Positions 44,196 through 46,064 of a stretch of 64,000 nucleotides of DNA are shown here, piece by piece. The translations under genes and the position numbers were made by a program. The DNA is from Chloroflexota bacterium (GTDB lineage: Bacteria > Chloroflexota > Dehalococcoidia > Bin125). The notes under the pieces were generated by a model, which was given only the letters and a program-made list of their open reading frames with translations, was not told the origin of the DNA and ran no database searches. The stretch is taken from positions 1 to 64,000 of the forward strand of contig JAPPJZ010000008.1 in NCBI GenBank assembly GCA_028874365.1, written 5' to 3'. How positions within the stretch are numbered: position 1 is the first letter of the stretch; each line of letters opens with the position of its first letter.

Positions 44196-44915
44196 TCAGC
44201 CCAGTGGTCTGCGTCGAATCTGGTTCCAGGAACGGGGAAAGCGATCGTCGGTGGCACGGAGCTTGGTCGCGACGACGAGATCGTGGGGCGGATCGAGCAT
44301 CGTGAGAGCGGCGCCAAGCTCTGTCGCAGCGGTACTGAGTTCTTCGAGCGCTGGCTCACCGATCTCACCGGTCCACAGCACGGCGATTCCACCGATATGC
44401 AGGAATGGAATCAGCAGCTCCATCGCGATCGGCGGCGCCGCCGTCGCCCGCGTAACGGCCAGCGCGAAGTGGTCTCGCAGTTCAGTGCGCGCCGCCTGCT
44501 CGGCCCGCTGCCTGAGGACCTCGATATGGACATCCTCCAGGCGAGCAACCGTCGACGCGAGGAATGCCGCTGCGCCTGAACGTGAGTCGAGCAACGTGGC
44601 CGGGCGTTGCGGCTCGCAAAGAGCAAACGGCAGGCCCGGGGCTCCGTTGCCGCTGCCGACATCGATCATCGGGCCGTGAGGTACGGGAAGGTCGGCGTGG
44701 ATCAATCGGTGACGACCCACTAACGGTTCGATTATGTGCTTGGCGATAGCGGCCTGTGGAGTGCGAACGGATGTCAGGTTGCGGGGCTGGTCGAGCAGCG
44801 CATCGAGCCAGAGGGCGAGTGGTCGGGCGATCGACGGGTTGAGATTCGCTACATAACCCAGCCCGGCCTGCTCCAGCTCGCGGGCAATTCGTTCGGGGTC
44901 TATCAGGTCTGACAT
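44196..44915 (-). CDS. rsmG: 16S rRNA (guanine-N7) methyltransferase RsmG
   Basis: 239 aa. SAM-binding loop MIDVGSGNGAPGLPFAL, the N-terminal NLTSVRTPQAAIAKHIIEPL and the basic C-terminus FPRSWNQIRRRPLG are RsmG hallmarks; it methylates N7 of G527 (E. coli numbering) in 16S rRNA. ATG 44915 (MSDLIDPERI) is preferred over the in-frame codon at 44966. TATCCT on the minus strand about 13 nt upstream is a likely -10. No gidA/parAB neighbours are present, unlike many genomes where rsmG lies in the replication-origin cluster. Confidence 0.9.
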   Translation of the reverse strand: MSDLIDPERIARELEQAGLGYVANLNPSIARPLALWLDALLDQPRNLTSVRTPQAAIAKHIIEPLVGRHRLIHADLPVPHGPMIDVGSGNGAPGLPFALCEPQRPATLLDSRSGAAAFLASTVARLEDVHIEVLRQRAEQAARTELRDHFALAVTRATAAPPIAMELLIPFLHIGGIAVLWTGEIGEPALEELSTAATELGAALTMLDPPHDLVVATKLRATDDRFPRSWNQIRRRPLG

Positions 44916-45032
44916 CAGCAGGAGGGTTAGGATAGGGGTGTTGGAGCTGAGCGACGCTCTGCTCATCCCGCGTGTCAGGCGTGGGAGGCAACTGGCACGA
45001 CTCGATCGCCGTTCGAGTGTTGGAGATGACGC

Positions 45033-46064
45033 ATGACCTTCTTTGACGACGATCAGACAGCGGAGGCGCTGGAGGGAGCACTCGACGACGTGGTGGAGGG
45101 CGAGGCCGAGGTCTTTGATGAGCCGGTGGGCACCGCTGTCGCGACCGCCCCCGAGCGGCCTGCCGCCGCAATCACGCTTGATGCGGCGGTCATGGAGTAC
45201 TTCGCGTGGGAGGAAGAGCGGGAGGCCAAGCGCTCGCGGCGCAAAGGCTCCAACGCATCAAGCGCCAAGCGGGGCGCGTTCGTGCTCGACGAGCCTGCGC
45301 GCGAGGCAGTGACCCGGTTCCTCTGGCACTTCGGCCCGAGCACGCCGATATCGGATCTCTCGCCCAAGACGATGGAGGGATTCCAGGAGACGATCGGCAC
45401 CAACACCATGGATCTCGCAGCGCGGCTGCAGCCGGTCAAGGAGTTTCTGCGCTATTGCTGGAAGCAGGGTTACACGGTCACGGTCGACACCAGCGGTCAG
45501 ACGACGACCCAGAACCTGGGTAACTTCCTGCGAATCAAGCGGGCGACCAACGTGGTCCGGGACACATCGCGGTTCCAGCACGAGCAGGCGCAGACGTTCG
45601 AGATGACTGCCGATGGCCTCCAGTTGCTCCACGATGAGTTGGGTCAGCTTGTCGCGGAAATGCCCGAAGCGGTGCAGGCCGTCGCAGCGGCACGGGAGGA
45701 CAAGGACATTCGCGAGAATGCCCCGCTCGAAGCGGCTCGCGAGCACCAGGAGCGCCTCAAGTCTCGCATCGACGAGCTTGAGTACCAGATAGCGCATGCG
45801 GTCGTCAGGGAAGAGCGAGCGACGGGACGAGCGAAGCTCGGTAGCCGAGTGTCGGTTGTCGAGGTCGACGATACGGGGAACATCCTCGGCGACGCCAAAG
45901 AGTACACTCTCGTGGGAACCACGGAAGCGAATGCGGCGGCACGGCGAATCTCGGTCGAGAGTCCGCTGGGTCGCGGATTGCTCGATCAGCCTGCCGACCG
46001 GCAGATTGAGATCCAGGCGCCCAGCGGTCGCAAACGGTTCCGCCTGCTCGCTGTCTTGGGCTAG
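45033..46064 (+). CDS. Gre-factor with N-terminal recombinase core-binding-like domain
   Basis: 343 aa, about twice the length of GreA (~158). Residues ~47-148 (ITLDAAVMEYFAWEEE, then FLWHFGPSTPISDLSPKTM and LQPVKEFLRYCWKQGY) match the helical core-binding (SAM-like) domain of tyrosine recombinases. Residues ~189-343 form a Gre coiled coil and FKBP-like domain (KLGSRVSVVEVD, EYTLVGTTEAN, SPLGRGLL). The tip acids needed for RNA cleavage by RNA polymerase are kept as D225 and E228 in DKDIRENAP. No recombinase catalytic domain is present. GGAG precedes ATG 45033; an inverted repeat ACTCGA/TCGAGT (45000-45018) lies in the leader. Confidence 0.85.
   Translation: MTFFDDDQTAEALEGALDDVVEGEAEVFDEPVGTAVATAPERPAAAITLDAAVMEYFAWEEEREAKRSRRKGSNASSAKRGAFVLDEPAREAVTRFLWHFGPSTPISDLSPKTMEGFQETIGTNTMDLAARLQPVKEFLRYCWKQGYTVTVDTSGQTTTQNLGNFLRIKRATNVVRDTSRFQHEQAQTFEMTADGLQLLHDELGQLVAEMPEAVQAVAAAREDKDIRENAPLEAAREHQERLKSRIDELEYQIAHAVVREERATGRAKLGSRVSVVEVDDTGNILGDAKEYTLVGTTEANAAARRISVESPLGRGLLDQPADRQIEIQAPSGRKRFRLLAVLG

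Follow-up and report, generated by a model that had tools for sequence, protein, structure and literature searches.

In most bacteria, RNA polymerases that have stalled are rescued by Gre factors, which are viewed as compact proteins of two domains. Their C-terminal domain binds RNA polymerase, and their coiled coil enters the secondary channel, where the tip helps to place the second metal ion and the water that cleave backtracked RNA (PMC4598747). The Gre fold is shared by inhibitory proteins, namely Gfh1, the anti-cleavage Gre paralogue of Thermus and Deinococcus (2eul, 3aoh), which carries no added domain, and Rv3788, the inhibition by which needs acidic residues of the tip (PMC4598747). 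Gre sequences also form the C-terminal portion of longer proteins, such as NF004969 (PRK06330, a cleavage factor with an unknown domain, 718 positions) and NF011309 (PRK14720, 906 positions), and the C-terminal domains of GreA/B have been found in predicted conflict systems (PMC8195603). In plants, the ALOG regulators set a precedent: they have put a core-binding domain of the XerC/D type to use in regulating transcription, with no recombinase catalysis, and the integrase N-terminal domain 3nrw is among their best matches (PMC3537659); these are eukaryotic proteins with a zinc ribbon insert and no fused polymerase-binding factor.

The window analysed here, the whole stretch of 64,000 nucleotides, comprises positions 1-64,000 of contig JAPPJZ010000008.1 (assembly GCA_028874365.1) from a Chloroflexota bacterium of the class Dehalococcoidia (Bin125). 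It contains a gene with an ATG start that encodes 343 amino acids plus a stop (ORF 45033..46064), in which a core-binding-like domain is joined to the N-terminus of a Gre factor. We refer to this protein as a core-binding-domain Gre factor (CB-Gre). The N-terminal parts of NF004969 and NF011309, several hundred residues long, are not matched by the window protein. No description of a core-binding-domain Gre factor was found in the open-access literature searched, in line with the original prediction, which did not know the architecture as a described system; the pairing is conserved in many Chloroflexota and has apparently not been reported. The features of the locus are as follows.

44196..44966, minus strand: rsmG (GidB, 16S rRNA methyltransferase), the divergent neighbour (Pfam GidB, E 3.8e-23)
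45033..46064, plus strand: the CB-Gre gene (ORF list; orthologues in the genus, class and phylum)
45033..45173, plus strand: acidic N-terminal tail, residues 1-47, predicted to be disordered (pLDDT, alignment, charge, dN/dS)
45174..45557, plus strand: core-binding-like (SAM-like) domain, residues 48-175 (AlphaFold2, Foldseek, VIA-align, match to a Xer profile)
45591..45806, plus strand: Gre coiled coil with its starting strand, residues 187-258 (Pfam GreA_GreB_N; predicted helices)
45699..45719, plus strand: catalytic tip DKDIREN, residues 223-229 (alignment)
45822..46055, plus strand: Gre C-terminal FKBP-like domain, RNA-polymerase-binding (Pfam GreA_GreB)

The Gre part shares with GreA/GreB (PF03449 plus PF01272; E. 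coli GreA, 1grj) the coiled coil, the FKBP-like domain and both tip acids, and CB-Gre differs from them in its extra N-terminal core-binding domain. Pfam matches to GreA_GreB_N (residues 191-258, E 4.4e-17) and GreA_GreB (residues 264-341, E 7.7e-14) were both above the gathering score. By sequence, the closest solved relative was E. coli GreA (1grj, E 1.8e-17) and the next was Gfh1; a Foldseek search returned 9a7t_B, 1grj and others, with 32% identity to E. coli GreA. AlphaFold2 predicted a strand at 189-191 and helices at 193-222 and 230-254. Residues D225 and E228 take the places of E. coli GreA D41 and E44 in the alignment, which bears out the assignment of a Gre factor with these acids to residues ~189-343, the Gre part running from 187 to 343. 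In a 57-row alignment D223, D225, E228 and N229 were invariant, and when 204 Gre proteins were aligned with E. coli GreA, both tip acids were present in all 105 fused proteins. The tip reads DKDxRENAPL in CB-Gre, compared with GDLKENAEY in GreA, whereas the Gfh1 tip was aligned as SSDDYDDSGLEAAK and has no equivalent of E44; CB-Gre, which keeps the GreA-type D and E, is therefore not of the Gfh1 type. With GreA-type domains and tip acids, CB-Gre is predicted from its sequence to stimulate cleavage. The window protein scored 107 bits against the NCBIfam greA model (TIGR01462), below the cut-off of 139.

The first 47 residues of CB-Gre carry a net charge of -12, with disorder predicted for residues 1-43 and an AlphaFold2 pLDDT of about 30. 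The motif DDVVEGE in this tail is conserved in the window's genus, and the tail dN/dS is mostly 0.2-0.5. The acidic tail is a genus-level feature that is absent from the short, class-typical CB-Gre of ~265-275 amino acids, which consists of a ~105-residue domain and Gre; the genus has the tail and two insertions beyond this plan.

The core-binding-like domain runs from residue 48 to about 170/175. Its AlphaFold2 model, built on the genus alignment, has four helices (49-71, 87-100, 111-121 and 128-144), a beta-hairpin (149-159), a short helix (162-165) and a low-confidence insertion (73-84), with a mean pLDDT of 79 and a pTM of 0.75 over residues 46-178. A Pfam search with the window's N-terminal 186 residues as a single sequence gave no match, and the N-domains of 61 relatives matched Phage_int_SAM_4 (11 matches), Phage_int_SAM_1 (9) and Phage_int_SAM_5 (2), the best with E = 5.7e-4. 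A profile of these 61 domains matched the integrase N-domain 3nrw (E 5e-4) and, more weakly, the integrase-like domain 2kd1 (E 0.083). Aligned by hhalign with the core-binding domains of the class's own Xer proteins, it scored 56.6 (E 2e-10), compared with a maximum of 16.4 for 40 column-shuffled control profiles. In a VIA-align comparison of the 46-178 model, the first 20 rows were all integrases (Z 11.7 to 6.5), among them 3nrw (Z 11.7), the lambda Int core-binding domain 2oxo (Z 9.8; 2.2 A over 87 residues) and XerA (Z 7.9), and the first unrelated row followed at Z 2.9. The top Foldseek rows were mostly integrase domains, with weak E-values. A Phage_integrase search of CB-Gre for the recombinase catalytic domain (PF00589, R-H-R-Y), with E up to 10, found none.

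Judged from these profiles and models, the predicted tyrosine-recombinase core-binding (SAM-like) fold is the right assignment for the N-domain. CB-Gre thus shares the four-helix fold and profile similarity of the tyrosine recombinases (Phage_int_SAM_1/_4/_5; lambda Int, XerC/D; 3nrw, 2oxo), but is joined to Gre and lacks their catalytic domain and several basic positions of Xer. The original prediction had placed a core-binding pattern at residues ~47-148; the fold was borne out, and the end of the domain was moved to about 170-175. It had also proposed structure prediction of residues 1-190 as a check; a disordered or unrelated N-terminal region, the outcome that counted against it, was absent, and the integrase core-binding fold was predicted at 46-178. 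Over residues 48-175 the dN/dS is about 0.04-0.16, indicating purifying selection, and the identity of N-domains to that of the window is mostly only 17-35% across the class.

Relatives were gathered from the genus, the class and the phylum, with searches centred in Chloroflexota. A Gre match was obtained in 279 of the 294 genomes of the class sample, and among the class matches listed (~150 genomes) nearly all the best ones extend into the N-domain. A phylum-wide profile search gave full-length matches in nearly all sampled class genomes and in several further families, and other Chloroflexota families matched the CB-Gre profile over the Gre part only. The same fusion, which related genomes had been expected to carry, is therefore present across the class and in several other Chloroflexota families. 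No virus-borne copies of CB-Gre were confirmed among viral contigs. In three class drafts that are 90-95% complete (G053, G071 and G115), a Gre factor of any kind was not found, which could reflect contigs missing from the assemblies or a true loss.

In a maximum-likelihood tree of the Gre domain (quick method, 101 rows), 40 fused rows fell into one group (SH-aLRT 94), joined by a single row without the N-domain, that of genome G081, and 57 other stand-alone rows formed a second group (support 86); two divergent stand-alone rows lay outside both. The grouping of the fused rows suggests that the domain was fused once, long ago, to one of two Gre paralogues. The G081 protein (L277, G081:C2:183000-191000) is a fused-clade Gre with an intact tip, KDVRENAPLEA. 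The N-domain was not found within 4 kb upstream of its gene, which, together with its membership of the fused clade, makes a secondary loss of the domain probable; the protein is a useful natural truncation.

The fused protein was the only Gre found in four single-contig genomes (G013, G049, G098 and G068). Each of these has 19-26 reductive-dehalogenase matches, from which we infer that they are organohalide-respiring Dehalococcoides- or Dehalogenimonas-like organisms.

Many other genomes carry both forms. The original prediction had suggested looking for the absence of a separate, stand-alone GreA. The window's genome does have a stand-alone paralogue (G000:C80:84601-85056; L002:1501-1956), and this copy has the tip region RDEGEGSETKNEQ, in which both catalytic acids are missing. 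Both acids were present in one of 74 stand-alone rows of the class, namely the fused-clade protein of G081, and, with fusion carriage per genome read partly from frame lengths and N-domain coverage, an acid-intact stand-alone copy occurred in none of the 61 class genomes that have both Gre forms. Such a copy was present in 9 of the 12 genomes without the fusion that were sampled in the phylum, and in one of eight fusion-bearing phylum genomes from outside the class, where the copy is very divergent. The division is imperfect: this set also includes eight class genomes that showed no fusion and likewise have no acid-intact stand-alone copy, their tips often being D/D or G/E. The acid-poor stand-alone Gre, likely labelled GreA, is the rule in the class. 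No fusion was found in family f7, one genome of which (G006) has stand-alone Gre genes in tandem, both tip positions being D (L125, G006:C8:6798-8325), and a third copy with the tip G/E (L126).

Because both acids are present in all fused proteins examined and no acid-intact stand-alone partner was seen in the class, CB-Gre is, from these sequence comparisons, very probably the working cleavage factor of the lineage. By analogy, the acid-less paralogue is a candidate Gfh1-like modulator. The tips of Gfh1 and Rv3788 are still acidic, unlike that of the acid-less paralogue, which need not act like Rv3788, given that inhibition by Rv3788 depends on its acidic tip.

The CB-Gre gene is separated by 66 bases from the divergent upstream rsmG, an arrangement that suggests that it has its own promoter. 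A citrate synthase gene follows it; two MFS transporter genes lie beyond rsmG, and cytochrome oxidase genes lie downstream of CB-Gre. No class-wide conserved gene partner was found, in a neighbour clustering partly confounded by antisense ORFs. An explanation based on an operon or partner was dropped, as only rsmG and the citrate synthase gene recur near the fusion, within the genus and family.

The two folds, the intact acids of every fused member, the single-clade ancestry and the degenerate stand-alone tips were established by computation. The best explanation of the locus, to which we give about an even chance, is that CB-Gre is a cleavage-competent Gre factor, the product of an old fusion, whose added basic domain grips nucleic acid at the polymerase. 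A core-binding domain free of the recombinase catalytic domain would have been joined to the N-terminus of Gre in that fusion. From known Gre biology, the secondary channel of RNA polymerase would receive the coiled coil, with the C-terminal domain docked at the channel rim, and D225 and E228 would help to retain the second magnesium ion, by which backtracked RNA is hydrolysed. The coiled coil has the Gre N-terminus at its base, which should place the added domain on the polymerase surface, beyond the mouth of the channel. There it may grip nucleic acid with little preference for sequence, the likeliest target being the downstream duplex close by, and so may raise the occupancy of CB-Gre on stalled complexes; the placement, the gripping and the gain in occupancy are the least certain steps. 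The acid-less stand-alone paralogue would probably be a Gfh1-like modulator, competing with CB-Gre for that channel.

The charge of the added domain bears on how it would act. The mean net charge is +4.7 for the N-domains and -3.8 for the Gre parts of the fused proteins, and per 100 residues the N-domains and the Xer core-binding domains carry similar charges (+4.4 and +4.5). In the window protein the N-domain is only mildly basic (+3) and is preceded by the -12 tail. The position of K136 is K or R in 100% of members and that of R167 in 98%. Equivalents of R131, K136 and R170 are basic in both the CB-Gre and the Xer core-binding profiles, whereas the positions aligned to 111, 115, 124, 125 and 130 are mainly basic in Xer only and are not kept in CB-Gre, which has conserved basic residues elsewhere, at positions aligned to 95, 98, 104, 143, 144, 167 and 169. 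A recombinase-type DNA interface is thus not simply preserved. Because the domain is basic and the Xer-type basic positions are only partly kept, general gripping of nucleic acid near the polymerase, with the downstream duplex first, is favoured on sequence grounds over sequence-specific targeting.

The main rival is protein docking alone, in which the core-binding fold would have been repurposed to dock on RNA polymerase, for instance on a lineage-specific surface of beta/beta', or on another factor, and would bind no nucleic acid. This is a real but clearly less probable reading. Partial loss of the Xer basic pattern and the appearance of the other basic positions agree with it, as does the clade-wide presence of the domain without conserved gene partners, which is expected if only the polymerase is needed; the mean positive charge and the retained equivalents of R131, K136 and R170, however, fit nucleic acid equally well.

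Nucleic-acid gripping could also take another form, in which the added domain binds not downstream DNA but the 3′ end of the RNA as it is pushed out through the secondary channel, and itself senses backtracking. By the known fold, the Gre N-terminus lies at the channel mouth, where backtracked RNA emerges, and the N-domain is basic. Core-binding domains are, however, known as binders of double-stranded DNA, and a precedent for RNA binding by them was not found, so this variant appears unlikely.

Core-binding domains of Xer and phage integrases participate in site recognition, and the original prediction allowed that the added domain might tether the factor to specific sites. Recognition of a specific DNA site, targeting CB-Gre to loci such as dif-like or regulatory sites, is improbable: a large clade conserves the gene as part of its core, and in some genomes it encodes the sole Gre, as would suit a factor with a general role in elongation. 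The basic positions of Xer at 111, 115, 124, 125 and 130 are not kept, and the low identity of N-domains across the class also argues against it.

Least credible of all is a gene-model artefact, in which translation would begin internally, close to the Gre part, and the upstream portion of the long frame would not be co-translated. The N-domain does evolve faster than the Gre part, and the acetyl-lysine K17 of cbdbA743 in Dehalococcoides-like genomes agrees with a count that starts at an internal Met rather than at the upstream ATG. Against this, the frame is open, under purifying selection over residues 48-175 and conserved from residue 1 across 11 genus members, which supports the start codon; throughout the phylum the folded domain is found again in this frame; and the internal Met is not conserved, many members having Leu-Thr there. 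A chance ORF or frame artefact was ruled out by the orthologues, the dN/dS and the phylum-wide recurrence.

The acetylated K17 was reported for GreA cbdbA743 in a study of a Dehalococcoides proteome (PMC7918482). Three Dehalococcoides-like fused proteins (L154, L274 and L275, from G013, G049 and G098) have no K17 when numbered from the upstream ATG, and have a lysine at 17 when numbered from the Met at the start of Gre. Since K17 fits the internal-Met numbering only, the comparison suggests that the published gene model of cbdbA743 omits the N-domain, an omission that may be the reason the fusion went unnoticed.

A whole class and several other families of the phylum thus carry the acid-intact Gre with a third domain, of a DNA-binding type and related to recombinases, whereas the conventional stand-alone copy has lost its acids. 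Names such as ‘GreA’ may mark the inactive stand-alone paralogue in these genomes, and many fused proteins, the window's included, score under the curated GreA cut-off. If the arm holds CB-Gre on the template or on extruded RNA, the lineage would provide a natural way to ask whether rescue of stalled polymerase is limited by Gre occupancy. More tentatively, a large clade, including organohalide-respiring genomes with the fused protein as their sole Gre, may run transcript cleavage through a Gre factor whose recombinase-type arm grips nucleic acid, with the acid-less paralogue as antagonist, which would be a new, two-part control of backtracking.
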